From the NCBI GenBank assembly GCA_030447305.1, contig JAUJPC010000002.1:510927-574926 (forward strand): a stretch of 64,000 bases of DNA, in the 5' to 3' direction. The DNA comes from Actinomycetota bacterium (GTDB lineage: Bacteria > Actinomycetota > CADDZG01 > JAHWKV01). Position numbers and translations under genes: made by a program. This document shows, piece by piece, positions 12,591-20,150 of the stretch; the first letter of the stretch is position 1; every line of letters begins with the position of its first letter. Under the pieces are notes generated by a model. The model saw nothing but the letters and a program-made list of their open reading frames with translations, was not told where the DNA came from and ran no database searches.

Positions 12591-15500
12591 GTGATGCGCT
12601 TCTGCCTATTCGGAGGCGTTAGCGTTGTTGGTGCTGATGGCATCCAGGTTCATCTCGGCAAGAAACAGCAACAGCTTCTGGCGTTCCTAATGCTTGCCGC
12701 GAACAGGACCATTCCCGGTGACGTCCTCGTTGACAACCTTTGGGAGCACCAGCTGCCGGCAAACCCCGCTAACAGTCTTCAAGACCTGGTGAAGCGGCTG
12801 AGAATTGCCCTCGGCGATGAGAGCCATAGTGTTGTTGTGACCCGTAACCGGGAGTACGGGTTGATTGCGAATCCCGATTGCCTGGACTTATCGTTGTTTC
12901 GGCGGCTCGCGACGGCAGGGCTTGCGCTTCAGGAAGCGGAACCGGAAACTTCCCGGCTGCTGCTTGCCCACGCATTAGAACAGGCGGCCGGTGATCTGCC
13001 TGATTTCAAGCCTGGTACCCGGGCAAGCGACGAAATCGAAGATCTTTACAGGCTTCGGCTGGCCGCTGTGAACGCCTTACAGGCTTTTGACTCGGGACCG
13101 GCGGAAGATTCAATCATGCGCGAGGGCATGGAGACGGTGCCGCCCCAGAGAGTCGGTTTGGCGCTCAACCTTTCCGACCTTGAGGAGCTGGTTCTGGTCG
13201 ACGTAGTTACGCAGGTTAGGAGTTTCCAAGGATTGATCCACCGGCTGTCACAAGGTGTTCTTATAGCTTCATTCCCATGGGTAGGGGCGGCTTTGCGGGC
13301 AGCTGCGCACATAGCCGATCAGCTTGCCAACTATCCTGAAGCGCTGCTTGGTGGGGCCGTCGGTCATATCCTGCCGGGGGGGACCATGCGGTCGACGGAG
13401 GCCCTTCTTCAACTTGCGGGCCGTGCTGCGCCCGGTCAGATCCTGGTACCCGCCAGGCTCCACGAATCGGCATCTCTTGGACGACTCACGGGTTCCCTTC
13501 AACTGATCGACGATGAGGACCCATCCGTCCGCCGTGGCCTCGGGGCGGGACCAAGCTGTTCGGTTACTCAAACCGATGTGCCGATGATCGGTCGAGAACA
13601 GACGATTGTCGAGATCGATGAACTCGTACACCGTCATAGGTTCGTGACTCTCAGGGGACCCGGCGGGGTTGGCAAAACTCGTCTAGCCCATGAAATGGTC
13701 GATATTCTCGGCGGGCGGTTCTTGGACGGTGTTTCATTCGTCGACTTATCGCAGGCGGACCGGCATGGAGATCCGGTTTCCTTGGTGGTACGGACCCTGG
13801 CCCTTGTGCCCGAATCTTACCGACGACCGGTAGAAACCTTGGTTGACCGCCTTGCTTCAAGCCGCCGCTTACTGATCCTTGACAACTGCGAGGAGTTCGT
13901 CGAGGACGTCCGAGATCTGTCGGAGGCACTGATGAACGGGTGCCCACACCTGCAGATCCTTGCAACAAGCAGGTCATGCGTCGGAGTCGCGCATGAGACG
14001 ATTTACGAGGTGAGCGAGCTGGATGTCGCCGACTCAGCACACCTTCTCCTGACTTTGGCATATCCGTCTCCAGGACCTGCTGTCTCGGACCACACCGAGT
14101 CGCGGATGCGAGATCTATCCTCGCTCCTGGACAACCTTCCGCTGGCGATCGAATGCGCTTCCGCGATGGTTAGGGCCATGGGCCTGGAGAGGACACTGGC
14201 GGCGCTCAGCTCCTTGCCCGACGGGGCGATGCTTCCCCTCTTGGATGCCGCACACGGGGGTAGGGGGCGCCACCCGTCTTTAGAGCTGGCTCTTAATGTC
14301 AGCTGCCGACTTCTTGACGAAAACGAACTGCGCCTTTTTGAGCGCTTGTCTTCGCTGCGTGGCACCTTCAGCACGGGAGATGCGGTCGGGGTCGCTTCCA
14401 ACGGCAACTTCGTCAGGACCAGTTCAGGCCTCGACCTCCTCTGCGAGGCCAGCCTGGTGAAGCGCCTTGGCTCCGACAGTTGGAGGATGCTTGAGCCGGT
14501 GCGTCAATTCGCGGCGACCCGGCTGCTTAGAAGAGGAGAACATTCGGCTCAGGCGGCTCGGCACGCGCGCCACTTCGTTGGCTTGGCCAAACAATCTGAG
14601 GCTAGCCTTCGCGGACCCGAAGAGGCGGCTTGTTTTGCCAGGTTGACCGATGCTTATCCGAATCTCGTTAAGGCCCTTTCATGGGCTGTTGAGTCCGGCG
14701 ATTGCCCGGCGGCCCTTGAACTCACCAGCTCGCTGTGGTGGTACTGGGCGGCGCGAGGGATGTTCGTCGAGGGCTCGCAAGCTGTTGAGCGAGCTCTGAC
14801 AGTCCAAGGATCCCCATCGAAGAGGTTACGTGCGAAGGCGCTGGTCGCGGCATCGCACCTGGCGTGGTGGGCGGGGAACCCGCAGAGAACCGAGACGTCG
14901 CTTATAGAGGCAATGCAACTTATTGGCGAACTCGACCGGGTAAATCACCAGGATGCCGCACTTGAAGCATGGGCGCGAACAGGCCTTGCCGCCGCAAGAA
15001 TGTGGGGTGGGGGAGAGTATGACCAGCTGCAGACGCACCTGAATGAAGCCCTGCGGCTCTTCACGTCAATAGGTGACGTTGGCGGCGCAGCGTTGAATCT
15101 ATCAACGCACAGCGGCATAGCTTGGCATCACGGTGACGACCACCTGCACTACTCCAAGGCCTGCCAGGCCCTCGCTGCATTCGAGTCTGTCGGTCACCAG
15201 ACGATGATTGCTCACTCCAAGCGAGTGGTGGGTCTGGCAAAGGCAGCGCTGGGCGGAGTCGAATCCGGTCGACCTTTGATCATTGAAGGTCTGGACCTCT
15301 CTGAGGAGTTGGGCGACATTGGAGGATTACCCCTCGGACTCTGCTTCTTTGGACTGGTGGAGGCTTGGGGAGACGACCGGGTAAGCGCCGTCGAGGCGTT
15401 CCGCCGGTCAATCATCATCAACCGGGATCTCGGTCAGATTTGGCCCTACGTGCTCTCCATCGGCTTCGCAAGTGAGGAGGCCTGCATTCAGGGCCGAGCG

Positions 15501-15710
15501 TCGGATGGTATCAGGCTGAATTCGGTAATTGAACGCCTTACGACTCGTACGGGAATTCGTTTTCCCCCGCGCGACGAACAGAGACTGCGCGCGGAGCTCG
15601 AGAGGGCTACTCAACTGCTCGGCCCTGCAGAGGCAGCAAAGTCGAGGGACGAGGGATCTGCGATGGACCTACCCGAAGCAACGATTCTTGCTCTGAACGT
15701 CTTGGAGTAG
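12591..15710 (+). CDS. AfsR/SARP-like regulator with ATPase and TPR-type regions
   Basis: The 1039-residue protein begins with an OmpR-type winged helix (about 5-95; KKQQQLLAFLMLAANRTI, DNLWEHQLPANPANSLQDLV). Residues about 195-315 (ending GRAAPGQILVPARLHESA) resemble a degenerate class III cyclase domain without recognisable catalytic aspartates. An AAA/NB-ARC-type ATPase follows: GPGGVGKT near 356 and RRLLILDNCEEF near 425. The last 350 residues are helical and TPR-like. Family members bind DNA as ATP-dependent switches controlling secondary metabolism. The short segment between winged helix and cyclase part is much smaller than a full BTAD domain. Start is GTG 12591 or ATG 12594. Its likely targets, by proximity only, are the convergent tyrA-ThDP-CMD genes. 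Confidence 0.85.
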   Translation: MMRFCLFGGVSVVGADGIQVHLGKKQQQLLAFLMLAANRTIPGDVLVDNLWEHQLPANPANSLQDLVKRLRIALGDESHSVVVTRNREYGLIANPDCLDLSLFRRLATAGLALQEAEPETSRLLLAHALEQAAGDLPDFKPGTRASDEIEDLYRLRLAAVNALQAFDSGPAEDSIMREGMETVPPQRVGLALNLSDLEELVLVDVVTQVRSFQGLIHRLSQGVLIASFPWVGAALRAAAHIADQLANYPEALLGGAVGHILPGGTMRSTEALLQLAGRAAPGQILVPARLHESASLGRLTGSLQLIDDEDPSVRRGLGAGPSCSVTQTDVPMIGREQTIVEIDELVHRHRFVTLRGPGGVGKTRLAHEMVDILGGRFLDGVSFVDLSQADRHGDPVSLVVRTLALVPESYRRPVETLVDRLASSRRLLILDNCEEFVEDVRDLSEALMNGCPHLQILATSRSCVGVAHETIYEVSELDVADSAHLLLTLAYPSPGPAVSDHTESRMRDLSSLLDNLPLAIECASAMVRAMGLERTLAALSSLPDGAMLPLLDAAHGGRGRHPSLELALNVSCRLLDENELRLFERLSSLRGTFSTGDAVGVASNGNFVRTSSGLDLLCEASLVKRLGSDSWRMLEPVRQFAATRLLRRGEHSAQAARHARHFVGLAKQSEASLRGPEEAACFARLTDAYPNLVKALSWAVESGDCPAALELTSSLWWYWAARGMFVEGSQAVERALTVQGSPSKRLRAKALVAASHLAWWAGNPQRTETSLIEAMQLIGELDRVNHQDAALEAWARTGLAAARMWGGGEYDQLQTHLNEALRLFTSIGDVGGAALNLSTHSGIAWHHGDDHLHYSKACQALAAFESVGHQTMIAHSKRVVGLAKAALGGVESGRPLIIEGLDLSEELGDIGGLPLGLCFFGLVEAWGDDRVSAVEAFRRSIIINRDLGQIWPYVLSIGFASEEACIQGRASDGIRLNSVIERLTTRTGIRFPPRDEQRLRAELERATQLLGPAEAAKSRDEGSAMDLPEATILALNVLE

Positions 15711-15856: not shown

Positions 15857-16369
15857 TCATGTCTGTGCCATGCCGGGCTGCTGTTCCGGAATGAGCTCGA
15901 AAGTCTCGCAGATCATTCCTACAAGAACGTACTGGCCGACCAACATGGCCAGTTCAATGATCGAGCTGTCATCAAGATACCGCTTCAAGTCGGTTTTCGT
16001 GGTAGCCGTGATCCTTCCCACGTCAATCAGTTCATCGGCGGCCAGTATGAGGAGTCGCTCCACTCCGGTCAGAGCCTTTGCCGCATCCGGCCGCGTTGCC
16101 ATAGTCATGTGCCCCTCGGTTAGGCCGCAGGAGCTAGCTATAACACGATGGCCCTCGAATGCGTAGGGGCAAGTGCGACGCCACGCCACTCTTAGAATCA
16201 CTAGCTCACGCCAGGCAGGACGAAGGCGACCCTTGGTCAAAAGCGACCGGGCGAAGCTTGACCAGGGGGCTCCAATCGCCTCCGCCTTTTTCAGCAGCGA
16301 CATCAACCGCTCGGCCTCTGCCAATCTCATGCCCGGAGGGGTGGGGAACTGTTCGATGCCCTGTGCCAT
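15857..16369 (-). CDS. Carboxymuconolactone decarboxylase (CMD) family protein
   Basis: The 170-residue protein has the CMD/AhpD pattern: WRELVILRVAWR, then CPYAFEGHRVIASSCGLTEG, with a conserved E-x-x-H and one cysteine where AhpD-type proteins carry CxxC. A true AhpD peroxidase needs both cysteines of the CxxC, so this is more like the decarboxylase/isomerase side of the family, many members of which have no known substrate. It starts two bases after the ThDP-enzyme stop and is the last gene of a three-gene operon with tyrA. It converges on the AfsR-like gene with 146 bp between them, in which I see no clear terminator. Confidence 0.75.
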   Translation of the reverse strand: MAQGIEQFPTPPGMRLAEAERLMSLLKKAEAIGAPWSSFARSLLTKGRLRPAWRELVILRVAWRRTCPYAFEGHRVIASSCGLTEGHMTMATRPDAAKALTGVERLLILAADELIDVGRITATTKTDLKRYLDDSSIIELAMLVGQYVLVGMICETFELIPEQQPGMAQT

Positions 16370-16371
16370 GG

Positions 16372-18042
16372 TTAGGCCAGCGTCTTAAGTCGGGAGTCGA
16401 ACGGGGGAGGTTGCTCCGAGTCGACCACGACGTCCAACAGGAACGGCCGGGAATCCGAAAGGGCGCGGCGGAGCGCCGGCTCAAGCTCCGATTCCCTTTT
16501 GACGGCTATCGCTTGGGCACCCATTCCGCGGGCGATCCTGACGAAATCGCACTGGGGAAATCGAGCATGCTTTTCCGTGGGCTCAAAGCCCATTCCTTTC
16601 TCGCACATTTGGTATCGACCGTTGTTCAGGACGACCCACTTCGCAGGGATCCCGTACTCAGCGGCCGTATTGATCTCGTTGTTCATCAGCATCGATCCAT
16701 CGCCGGTGAGGCACACCGCCGGGCCGCGTCGGGACAGTGCCGAACCGATCACTCCACATGTCATGTGCCCCATGGACCCGAAGCCACCCACGATTCGCAA
16801 CTGGCTCGGCCGACGCATCATGAGAAGGTTTGCTGCCCACGCCATGGCACTTCCGGGCTCGACGAGCAGAGGGACACCGGCGTCCACGACAACTTGTTGC
16901 ATGGCGGCCATGAGCGCCTGTGGCCGAATGGAATTCGCGTCACGGTAAATCGATGGAACGCCGACGAAGGGGCTGGGACAGTGAAACGGTCGGTGGGGGA
17001 TTTCCTCGGCCCGGACCAAAAGCTCGTCGAGAAAGGCTCCAACGTCGGCTTGAATGGCGAGCACGGGGCTCGAGAGTGCCATGCCGGGGACACTGGAATC
17101 GATGTCCACATGGACAAAGCCGCCGGGTGGAATGAGGCGCGTTTCCCATCCGGAGGATGGTTCTCCAAGCCGTGTTCCAAGTACGAGAATAAAGTCGGGC
17201 CGATACCGTTCAAGCGATTCAATCCCGCTTGGATGTCCCCCCAGCCCTGTGACCATGACGAACTGCGGGTGGTCTTCGGCGACCACTCCTTTTCCTCGTG
17301 GAGTCGCCAGTACGGGAGCCCCCGTCAAGTCGACCAACGCCCGGATCTGCCTGGTTGCCTGTCGCGCGCCGTGACCCACCCAGATGGCGAAACGATTCCT
17401 GGCCATGAGTTGAGTAACATGTCGCACCGCTGCCGGATCCGGGAAGGGCCGGCAGATTCGGTAGTCACTTTGGTCAACGGACGTCTGGCGGACGGAGGCG
17501 TTCTGGAGACTGACGGGAATGCTGAGGTGCGCGACGTAGGAGCCGAGGCGTTCGAATCCATGTCGAAGCCGGCAAGCAATTCCTGTGATCTCTTCGGTCG
17601 ACTCCATGACAAAGACTTCGTCAAATAGCCAGCCAGGGGTGAATAAGTCGGCCGATGGCATGGGAGTCTCTTGGACGGCGCCGCGGCCACGCTGTGCCGG
17701 TGAGGTTCGGGGCGAAACGAGAACAACTTTAGCCCCCTCGCTCCTTGCTGCCGCAAGTCCGGTCACTGCGTTCGTTATGCCGGGACCGGTCGTGCAAAAG
17801 ACTGCCACGGGACCATCGCGATCCAGTGAAGCCTCTATGGCCGCAAAAGCTGCTCCAGCTTCGTGTCGAAAGTGAAGGGTTTCGATGTCGGGACAGTCGA
17901 TCAGGGCACGCCAGACGCGTCCAATGCCTCCCCCCGAGACGCCAAAGGCATGGCGTATGCCAGCTTCAGCGAACGTCTGCGCAACAAGGTCGGCAAGATT
18001 GCGCTCCAGGGCAAAGACCGCAATTGGCTCGGACTGGATCAA
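16372..18042 (-). CDS. ThDP-dependent enzyme (acetolactate synthase/decarboxylase-like)
   Basis: The 556-residue protein has all three ThDP-enzyme domains. RHEAGAAFAAIEA near residue 60 carries the catalytic Glu that activates thiamine. Residues about 190-340 are the central Rossmann-like domain. GDGSMLMNNEINTAA near 445 is the ThDP/Mg motif. Relatives include acetolactate synthase, benzoylformate decarboxylase and acyloin-forming enzymes; no regulatory subunit gene is nearby, which argues against a housekeeping IlvB. The start is TTG 18042, supported by a GGGAGG site just upstream, and it overlaps the tyrA stop as TTGA, so the two are translationally coupled. Being downstream of prephenate dehydrogenase, it may act on 4-hydroxyphenylpyruvate or a related 2-oxo acid; this is inference. 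Confidence 0.8.
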   Translation of the reverse strand: MIQSEPIAVFALERNLADLVAQTFAEAGIRHAFGVSGGGIGRVWRALIDCPDIETLHFRHEAGAAFAAIEASLDRDGPVAVFCTTGPGITNAVTGLAAARSEGAKVVLVSPRTSPAQRGRGAVQETPMPSADLFTPGWLFDEVFVMESTEEITGIACRLRHGFERLGSYVAHLSIPVSLQNASVRQTSVDQSDYRICRPFPDPAAVRHVTQLMARNRFAIWVGHGARQATRQIRALVDLTGAPVLATPRGKGVVAEDHPQFVMVTGLGGHPSGIESLERYRPDFILVLGTRLGEPSSGWETRLIPPGGFVHVDIDSSVPGMALSSPVLAIQADVGAFLDELLVRAEEIPHRPFHCPSPFVGVPSIYRDANSIRPQALMAAMQQVVVDAGVPLLVEPGSAMAWAANLLMMRRPSQLRIVGGFGSMGHMTCGVIGSALSRRGPAVCLTGDGSMLMNNEINTAAEYGIPAKWVVLNNGRYQMCEKGMGFEPTEKHARFPQCDFVRIARGMGAQAIAVKRESELEPALRRALSDSRPFLLDVVVDSEQPPPFDSRLKTLA

Positions 18043-18995
18043 TGAGCACCTCCCAGTTCACTTACAAAAGATCCACGGCGACGGTTCCAAGCAGAAGTGG
18101 CGCCCGGTACACGACGAATGTTCCGGGGAGTGCGCAGGGGCACCGACTCTTCGATGAGGCGGCAGGCTTCGGCGAAAAAGGCGAGAACGGCTTCCCTATC
18201 TGCTTCGTCGATCGCTTTTTTAACGGCACTCAATCGGCTCATCATTTCGCTGATCGAATCGCTTACCTCTGCCCGGTTGTGAAGGGCGATATCGGTCCAA
18301 AGATCGGGATTTGCCCTAGCGATCCGGGTGCTGTCTAAGAATCCCCCTCCGATGAGCCGACGCGCGAATGCCCGATCCCGTGTGCCGACAACATGTACGA
18401 GGCTGCTGGCGGCAACGTGAGGCAGGTGACTTGTCCTGGCCGTTACGCTGTCATGCTCAGCCGCTCCTAACCTCACGGGTTCGGCCCCCATCCTTCGAAT
18501 CAGCCCCTCCGCCATCCAGAGCCGATACGGCGACGTCGAGGCCGTCGGGCAGACGACCCAAACCCCCCCGACAAAAAGGTCCTTCGCCGCACCTTGCGGA
18601 CCGCTCACGTGCGTGCCTCGAAGCGGATGAGAGGGGACGAAGCGAGGATCGTTTATCGCTCTCGCAATTTCGCCCTTGACCGAAGCCACGTCTATGACTG
18701 TGGCGTGCGTCCTTTCGAGCACCGATCTAGCCACGCTGACGACCTCGCCGGGCGGCACCGCGACGAAAACCACCTGGCAGCCGAAGAAGCCATTGAAGTC
18801 TGGCGATGCTGTGGTGATCGCCCCCAGGTCAACTGCCTCTTGAAGATGCTGGAGGGAGGTATCGAAGCCGACGGTGCCCTCTCCCGCAGCTCGAAGAGCC
18901 AAACCTATCGATGTCCCTACCGCACCAAGTCCAACAATTCCCACATCGGACACCGGCGTTGTGGGGGTCACCAGGTCCCCCAGGTCACCGAGCAA
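18039..18995 (-). CDS. tyrA: Prephenate dehydrogenase-like protein
   Basis: The protein (318 residues from TTG 18995; about 310 if GTG 18971 is used) has an N-terminal NAD-binding motif GLGAVGTSIG, SHPLRGTHVSGPQGA resembling the TyrA SHPMAG loop, and HLPHVAASSLVHV of the helical dimerisation domain. TyrA converts prephenate to 4-hydroxyphenylpyruvate. There is no ACT domain for feedback by tyrosine, which fits a pathway-dedicated copy. It is first in an operon with a ThDP enzyme and a CMD protein and is divergent from an ECF sigma gene. Confidence 0.82.
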   Translation of the reverse strand: MLGDLGDLVTPTTPVSDVGIVGLGAVGTSIGLALRAAGEGTVGFDTSLQHLQEAVDLGAITTASPDFNGFFGCQVVFVAVPPGEVVSVARSVLERTHATVIDVASVKGEIARAINDPRFVPSHPLRGTHVSGPQGAAKDLFVGGVWVVCPTASTSPYRLWMAEGLIRRMGAEPVRLGAAEHDSVTARTSHLPHVAASSLVHVVGTRDRAFARRLIGGGFLDSTRIARANPDLWTDIALHNRAEVSDSISEMMSRLSAVKKAIDEADREAVLAFFAEACRLIEESVPLRTPRNIRRVPGATSAWNRRRGSFVSELGGAH

Positions 18996-19184
18996 GTGTG
19001 GAAACCAAAACCGTGATTCGCCATGCGGTCCTCCGTGTCGAGCTCATTTCTCAACCCTCAAACCCTTCTACCTGTGCTCGGATGCGATTCCTTCCCGAAG
19101 GACGAAGGCAGTCTCACCCGGAAGGAAATGCGGGGCAGCCCGGGTAAGCAGGCCGAACACACGGTTCGACGAACAGGAGGAGTG

Positions 19185-20150
19185 TTGTCTCTAACTGCAA
19201 ATCAAGAGGTCGGACCCGCAAACCCAAGCGTCGACCGCCTCTTTCCCCGTAGCGGCACCCAAACCGATCCATTCCGGCTGCTCATCGCCGAACGGTCAAA
19301 CGAAGGACTTGGGCAACTGGCAGGCAGCGCCGACGACGAGTCAACGCAACGAGATGCATTCGACGAACTCTTTCGAAGGCTGTGGCGGGCGACTGTTGAG
19401 TGGGCCCGCTCGGTGGGAGTTGTAAGTCAGTACCAGGCAGAGGATGCGGCAACCAAAGCCTGGCTTCGGGCGTGGCGTTACCGACATCGGTACGATCCGC
19501 ATAAGGGGAGTTACGGGACGTGGCTTGGGACCATTGTCAGGAATGAGACGCTCGATCTGCTGAAAGAGGAGTCCCGGCATCATCTGGCGACCATTGGTCA
19601 AACGGACGACCTTGACGGTTCGGTTTGCGTGACGCAAGAGGACCCCGACCTCATGGCTCTTTCCTACGTCTGGGAGGCCTTCGATGCACTGAGGAAAGCA
19701 AAACCCGATTTTGCGGCTGCGCTGCTGCTCAAAGCCGAAGGGTACCCGGACAAACAGATAAGCATGATGCTGGGGCTGGAAAAGGTAGGGACGGTAGGGA
19801 GTCGCCTCTCGAGGGGCAAGAAGTTCATGGCCGAGTGGCTTGCGTCCCAAGGAGTGGTCTTTCTTCCCCAAGCCGCTATTGGGTCGGTCCACCCATGGGG
19901 CCTTAACCCCTTGTCTACGACGTCTACGGGGAAGTTCTACAGCTTCTCTCCATTGATGGGCCTGCTTGTTCTACCTACTGAAATGGCGAACCCACCCGGT
20001 GCAGTACGAGTGTGCGACGGCTTCTTTGTGCAGGTTTGGTCATATCCGTTGGACCGCTACCGGATTACCACTTCCTGCCAAACTCTTGACGAGTGGAGTC
20101 AGGTCGTATTCAAGTGGAATGACTATGTGGTGCTCGAATGCTCGGGCTGA
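19185..20150 (+). CDS. Sigma-70 family (ECF-type) RNA polymerase sigma factor with C-terminal extension
   Basis: The protein (about 321 residues from TTG 19185, with AGGAGG at 19175-19180) carries a region 2 (AFDELFRRLWRATVEWAR, then TKAWLRAWRY and GSYGTWLGTIVRNETLDLL) and a region 4 with ALLLKAEGYPDKQISMMLGL. The initial 60 residues and the last 95 (after MAEWLASQG) are outside the usual ECF core; the tail is not a recognised SnoaL or TPR domain. The frame is open back to 19023, but homology and ribosome site favour the later start. It precedes a small protein with an anti-sigma-like zinc motif. Confidence 0.75.
   Translation: MSLTANQEVGPANPSVDRLFPRSGTQTDPFRLLIAERSNEGLGQLAGSADDESTQRDAFDELFRRLWRATVEWARSVGVVSQYQAEDAATKAWLRAWRYRHRYDPHKGSYGTWLGTIVRNETLDLLKEESRHHLATIGQTDDLDGSVCVTQEDPDLMALSYVWEAFDALRKAKPDFAAALLLKAEGYPDKQISMMLGLEKVGTVGSRLSRGKKFMAEWLASQGVVFLPQAAIGSVHPWGLNPLSTTSTGKFYSFSPLMGLLVLPTEMANPPGAVRVCDGFFVQVWSYPLDRYRITTSCQTLDEWSQVVFKWNDYVVLECSG

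Follow-up and report, generated by a model that had tools for sequence, protein, structure and literature searches.

A genus-wide cassette of TyrA, ThDP-enzyme and CMD-fold genes carries an actinobacterial lineage of the ScyA/CybE carboligase family

The window analysed here is a 64,000-nucleotide stretch of the genome of an Actinomycetota bacterium (GCA_030447305.1, contig JAUJPC010000002.1). Three WhiB genes in the genome agree with this placement: WhiB is an actinobacterial family, and of 14 control genomes only Corynebacterium gave a match to it. The window contains a compact minus-strand operon and two flanking genes on the opposite strand:

18039..18995, minus strand: TyrA-type prephenate dehydrogenase without an ACT domain, cassette copy (Pfam PDH_N and PDH_C)
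16372..18042, minus strand: ThDP-dependent enzyme of the ScyA/CybE family (NCBIfam, tree, residues)
15857..16369, minus strand: CMD/AhpD-fold protein without a CxxC redox pair (Pfam CMD, alignment, AlphaFold, Foldseek)
12591..15710, plus strand: AfsR/SARP-like regulator with Trans_reg_C and NB-ARC domains (Pfam)
19023-20150, plus strand: sigma-70 family gene, divergent from the operon

Open reading frames and Pfam searches confirmed, at these coordinates, the gene set of the original prediction: a TyrA without an ACT domain, a ThDP-enzyme gene coupled to it through TTGA, and a CMD gene. The surrounding layout was also as described, with the AfsR-like gene converging on the operon from the left and the sigma gene diverging at the right. 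The operon is read in the order TyrA, ThDP enzyme, CMD protein. The TyrA stop and the ThDP start overlap in the TTGA, with GGGAGG upstream, and the ThDP stop is separated from the start of the CMD gene by a 2-bp gap. The TyrA frame was counted from TTG 18995, GTG 18971 being an alternative possible start. The GC content of the three genes (58.5–60.8%) is slightly below that of the window (63%).

An 18-codon open reading frame at 18968-19024 of the window (minus strand) has a GGAGG site, two Phe and two Trp codons, and a stop that overlaps the possible GTG start of TyrA, and in these respects resembles an aromatic leader peptide. We rejected this reading and left the frame as a chance occurrence, since nothing comparable precedes TyrA in three congeners.

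The cassette TyrA matches Pfam PDH_N with 92.8 bits and PDH_C with 75.6 bits, and no ACT domain was detected in it at E ≤ 1e-3. Ser105 and His123 are invariant in the four cassette copies compared; their pairing with Ser101 and His124 of PMC5681985 was made by motif reading, not by alignment to that protein. Judged from its sequence, the protein has the domains of a prephenate dehydrogenase together with the catalytic Ser and His. According to the same paper, residue 222 cannot tell a prephenate from an arogenate substrate in such TyrA proteins (PMC5681985).

We compared the locus across the genus. The TyrA-ThDP-CMD order is kept in 4/4 genomes (the window genome and the three congeners). As it persists despite identities of 41–43% for TyrA, 47–50% for the ThDP enzyme and 35–41% for the CMD protein between the window and the congeners, it exceeds what is expected by chance. 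The co-conservation of the three genes that the original prediction called for was thus found, within one genus only. The AfsR-like gene also stands beside the cassette in all four genomes, with 41% identity over more than 1000 amino acids in 3/3 congeners; it is directly downstream and codirectional in the congeners, and inverted (convergent) in the window. No match to the sigma gene was found near the other three cassettes, those of the congeners. Besides the regulator, the neighbours of the window's cassette are not common to the congeners, which share some flanking genes with one another, and no tailoring or transport gene was seen to be conserved alongside the cassette. The conserved unit therefore comprises four genes, including the regulator but not the sigma factor; the small metabolite cluster proposed earlier is supported with its membership amended in this way.

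A protein family of about 470 amino acids, with no Pfam match, occurs near the congener cassettes (L100:461-1876, L101:9490-10896 and L102:16904-18313). The member at L101 was not matched anywhere in the genome of the window (E ≤ 1e-10).

A second, housekeeping TyrA is encoded elsewhere in the genome and is 75–77% identical between the window species and the congeners. Among the three congeners themselves, identities are 63–66% for the cassette TyrA, 71–75% for the ThDP enzyme and 85–86% for the housekeeping TyrA. Since the identities of the cassette genes are far below those of the housekeeping TyrA, the cassette genes diverge fast, as a set.

Among 24 genomes of the class, which is a small one, 4 gave a match to the ThDP gene (E ≤ 1e-100), all four belonging to the genus, and the same four genomes were recovered from 396 genomes of the phylum (E ≤ 1e-80), with none outside the genus among these actinobacterial genomes at that threshold. 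A looser search (E ≤ 1e-40) passed 12 of 198 genomes, eight of them with merely 140–156 bits and about 29–30% identity, the level of similarity that the ThDP enzyme shows to acetolactate synthases. The CMD protein was matched in 6 of 41 genomes, four being the genus and two weak, and a plasmid search with the ThDP protein returned two cyanobacterial plasmids only.

The ThDP enzyme has the Pfam domains TPP_enzyme_N, M and C, and its fold and domains are common to AHAS. Its best NCBIfam models are NF035927 (TPP_ScyA_rel, 600 bits) and NF035923 (TPP_ScyA, 591 bits), with acetolactate synthase at 172 bits; the ScyA-related and ScyA models thus score above the AHAS model by over 400 bits. All three scores lie under the respective cut-offs, which are 1020 bits for the ScyA equivalog NF035923 (a Nostoc scyABC copy reaches 1114 bits), 1000 bits for NF035927 (a congener scores 471 bits), nonetheless the best NCBIfam model of the enzyme, and 538 bits for TIGR00118 (biosynthetic acetolactate synthase).

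A genome scan for relatives of the ThDP enzyme gave 112 loci, the best 80 of which, heavily weighted towards Nostoc, were used. Titles among these best 80 of 112 are cyanobacterial in 78 cases, with one Gracilibacteria and one Hyphomicrobiales. The neighbours are scyABC at 51 of the 80 and a KAS III-like gene (furanolide type) at 22; a further 3 loci have scyC without scyB in the stretch covered, and 4 are unassigned. The Hyphomicrobiales contig (L095:9836-16026) carries a ScyA-type gene (840 bits with the ScyA model) and a ScyC (536 bits, above its cut-off), as well as P450 and cytochrome c genes, with no ScyB seen, and appears to be a non-cyanobacterial scytonemin-like cluster. The locus entitled Candidatus Gracilibacteria (L020:9800-11701) has scyABC that groups with cyanobacterial ScyA, and is probably a mis-binned cyanobacterial contig. 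A Moorena ScyA-related gene (L056:8584-13042) is flanked by amidase and M20 peptidase genes, with no scy or cyb genes, and perhaps serves another product type. Two Calothrix ScyA-related genes (L098:9911-12825 and L099) form their own branch, with a KAS III-like gene adjoining on the opposite strand.

The ThDP tree comprised 42 trimmed rows, other scyABC and cybEF rows being thinned as near-duplicates. The four copies of the genus cluster together (100/98) as the sister group of all 31 ScyA/CybE rows (fork 96/93), and all 35 ScyA/CybE-type rows are united with 100/100 support, apart from BbmA, AHAS and PoxB. The exact rooting is less sure than this grouping because the branches are long. The enzyme is separate from E. 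coli IlvB and IlvI and from the genome's own housekeeping IlvB, which is a separate gene and groups with AHAS. We conclude that the ThDP enzyme belongs to the ScyA/CybE clade in the wider sense, with the copies of the genus as a sister lineage, and that the cassette is a genus-wide, fast-diverging four-gene unit with an actinobacterial branch of these carboligases. The earlier parallel with ScyA proved sound, the pairing with TyrA having a real counterpart in scytonemin clusters. As for ScyA being the nearest relative, the kinship stands, but CybE, the furanolide enzyme, is equally among the closest kin.

Diagnostic residues gave the same picture. We selected 121 alignment columns that are at least 90% conserved in 73 ScyA/CybE reference rows (51 scyABC and 22 cybEF, many being closely related) and whose residue occurs in none of three AHAS. 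In the window enzyme, 82 of the 121 carry the ScyA/CybE residue and 10 an AHAS residue. The ScyA/CybE residue is found at 61, 59 and 56 positions in the congeners, at 22 in BbmA and at 18 in PoxB. Gly483 of the window enzyme occupies a column that is Trp in two and Gln in one of the three AHAS, and Gly in 51/51 scyABC, 22/22 cybEF, 7/7 other ScyA/CybE rows and 3/3 congeners; by alignment, it is the residue altered in the BbmA-G484F structure. The Trp of AHAS at this column governs acceptor size. The active site is conserved: all 84 ScyA/CybE-type rows retain catalytic Glu61, the GDG aspartate and the first Asn of the GDG/N motif. At the motif's second Asn position, 80 of the 84 rows have Asp and 4 have Asn; in the rows printed from the diagnostic alignment, Asn is the residue of the four actinobacterial enzymes.

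By family scores, tree and residues, the ThDP gene is ruled out as a housekeeping AHAS, and the tight grouping with housekeeping acetolactate synthases that had been named as the contrary outcome was not observed. A second, diverged acetolactate synthase, or another enzyme of primary metabolism with no special product, could still share the AHAS fold and domains, and the congener copies do retain some AHAS-like residues; yet the presence of a separate IlvB that groups with AHAS, the restriction of the ThDP gene to one genus, and the faster divergence of the cassette TyrA relative to the housekeeping one make such a role highly improbable.

In earlier reports on this family, ScyA joins 4-hydroxyphenylpyruvate with indole-3-pyruvate, giving a labile beta-keto acid that ScyC cyclises and decarboxylates (PMC4870267, PMC9822442). 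CybE couples 2-oxoisovalerate and 4-hydroxyphenylpyruvate to a product that CybF uses (PMC12395478). Phenylpyruvate and 2-oxobutanoate have been proposed as substrates of myxobacterial CybE homologues (PMC8777810), and a ScyA copy of Methylocaldum marinum has been described (PMC9796282). An arylpyruvate is common to the ScyA/CybE-family reactions described in these reports (PMC4870267, PMC12395478, PMC8777810).

Downstream, within 10 kb, 30 of 51 scyABC loci and 3 of 22 cybEF (KAS III-type) loci have a TyrA gene, some loci being cut short. In the TyrA tree, the cassette and housekeeping copies of the genus form separate clades, and the four scyABC/cybEF-linked TyrA that were placed belong to a clade other than the cassette TyrA. 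Descent of the cassette TyrA from the housekeeping TyrA of the genus or from scytonemin-cluster TyrA is unsupported, as these are three separate clades. Since the four scyABC/cybEF-linked TyrA that were placed are of another clade, TyrA seems to have been paired with the ScyA/CybE family at least twice, and this repeated pairing is therefore the best indirect evidence for 4-hydroxyphenylpyruvate as a substrate here.

At positions 477 and 480 the window enzyme has Tyr and Cys, like ScyA/CybE, and the three congeners have Leu and Val, like AHAS, so the substrate pair may differ among the four enzymes. These pocket differences, along with the 2-oxoisovalerate accepted by CybE-type enzymes and the 2-oxobutanoate proposed for them (PMC12395478, PMC8777810), would be compatible with a carboligase that couples a pair of aliphatic 2-oxo acids, or uses phenylpyruvate or indole-3-pyruvate derived from aminotransferases, while TyrA merely boosts the tyrosine supply. 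We consider this unlikely given that in the window translation of the ThDP gene is coupled to that of TyrA and that a cassette TyrA is kept in 4/4 genomes beside the separate housekeeping TyrA.

The CMD protein scores 22.0 bits with Pfam CMD (PF02627), just below the 23-bit cut-off. Its AlphaFold model has an AhpD-like fold (mean pLDDT 72, residues 1–42 unreliable), and the four best Foldseek matches have E-values of 1.6e-4 to 7.5e-4. The fold and the weak profile match are those of the AhpD/carboxymuconolactone decarboxylase family. Unlike AhpD, the protein has no CxxC redox pair in any of the four aligned copies, at what we take to be the location where it would stand. Glu55, Tyr69 and His74, which presumably correspond to the AhpD proton relay, are invariant in all four. 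An AhpD peroxidase is disfavoured by the missing CxxC. From its position, the chemistry of the pathway and the missing cysteines, we infer that the CMD protein may decarboxylate or rearrange the product of the ThDP enzyme.

The same features bear on whether the ThDP enzyme could be a simple aryl-2-oxo acid decarboxylase (IpdC/PDC-like) that forms 4-hydroxyphenylacetaldehyde and is assisted by the CMD protein in a redox or detoxifying role. Enzymes of the ThDP superfamily can decarboxylate, and many solved CMD-fold proteins among the Foldseek matches carry a peroxidase-like annotation, but the enzyme groups with carboligases (in the tree without PDC/IpdC rows) and the CMD protein is devoid of the redox pair, so we judge this quite improbable. 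The acyloin or aldehyde chemistry suggested originally is accordingly retained as far as carboligation goes, simple decarboxylation to an aldehyde being the less likely half.

Combining the observed gene order, co-conservation, family kinship and active-site conservation, we consider it probable that the locus is a TyrA-fed, ScyA/CybE-type carboligase cassette for specialised metabolism, with processing by the CMD protein and an AfsR/SARP switch. In such a pathway the dedicated TyrA would oxidise prephenate to 4-hydroxyphenylpyruvate. The ThDP enzyme would decarboxylate one 2-oxo acid and add the acyl anion thus formed to another one at its keto group; 4-hydroxyphenylpyruvate would be at least one of the pair, and the product an alpha-hydroxy-beta-keto acid. 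The CMD-fold protein would decarboxylate, isomerise or cyclise this labile compound, filling the pathway place of ScyC in scytonemin and of CybF in furanolide biosynthesis, and the AfsR/SARP-like protein would switch the operon on.

The cassette was compared with known systems. With ScyA (NF035923) the enzyme shares the ThDP family, more than 40% identity, the diagnostic residues and the pocket glycine; it differs in scoring under the ScyA cut-off, in being sister to ScyA rather than inside it, and in its actinobacterial host. The scytonemin cluster likewise has a TyrA in its wider gene set, but the cassette is without ScyB, ScyC and scyDEF, has a CMD-fold partner, and its TyrA is of another clade; the superfamily of ScyB-type dehydrogenases (ELFV_dehydrog) has no match in the whole genome. 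CybE also belongs to this ThDP family, NF035927 being matched by the loci that have a KAS III-like CybF neighbour, and an alpha-hydroxy-beta-keto acid product is probable in both cases. Unlike the CybE locus, the cassette has no CybF (KAS III-like), CybC (CoA ligase) or CybB (ammonia lyase) gene adjoining, and its TyrA is directly coupled. The closest solved structures by sequence are BbmA and CsmA (PDB 8x3x, 8x3z; 219 and 158 bits), termed CybE homologues in PMC12395478, where BbmA is printed as BpmA; unlike the cassette enzyme, BbmA falls outside the ScyA/CybE clade, and it has only 22 of the 121 diagnostic residues. The bagremycin/ferroverdin cluster includes genes for a prephenate dehydrogenase, a CMD protein and a SARP regulator that are not mutually adjacent, and the rows of its table examined contain no ScyA-type gene (PMC6692506). 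In the open-access literature searched, partly as excerpts, no description of a TyrA-ThDP-CMD cassette was found.

More tentatively, the cassette could represent a third line of ScyA/CybE chemistry, with an arylpyruvate carboligase that is fed by TyrA and passes its alpha-hydroxy-beta-keto acid to a redox-dead CMD protein, itself a new decarboxylase or cyclase, under its own AfsR/SARP-type regulator, for a natural product class outside scytonemin and the furanolides; we view this as possible rather than probable. Work on ScyA-type carboligases has so far centred on cyanobacteria, in which they serve to make scytonemin and furanolides, and CybE homologues are on record from myxobacteria. If our reading is true, an actinobacterial sister lineage would widen the range of ScyA/CybE carbon-carbon bond chemistry. 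It would also provide a new way into mining genomes for clusters that lack PKS and NRPS genes, and a small set of three enzymes suitable for reconstruction in E. coli.
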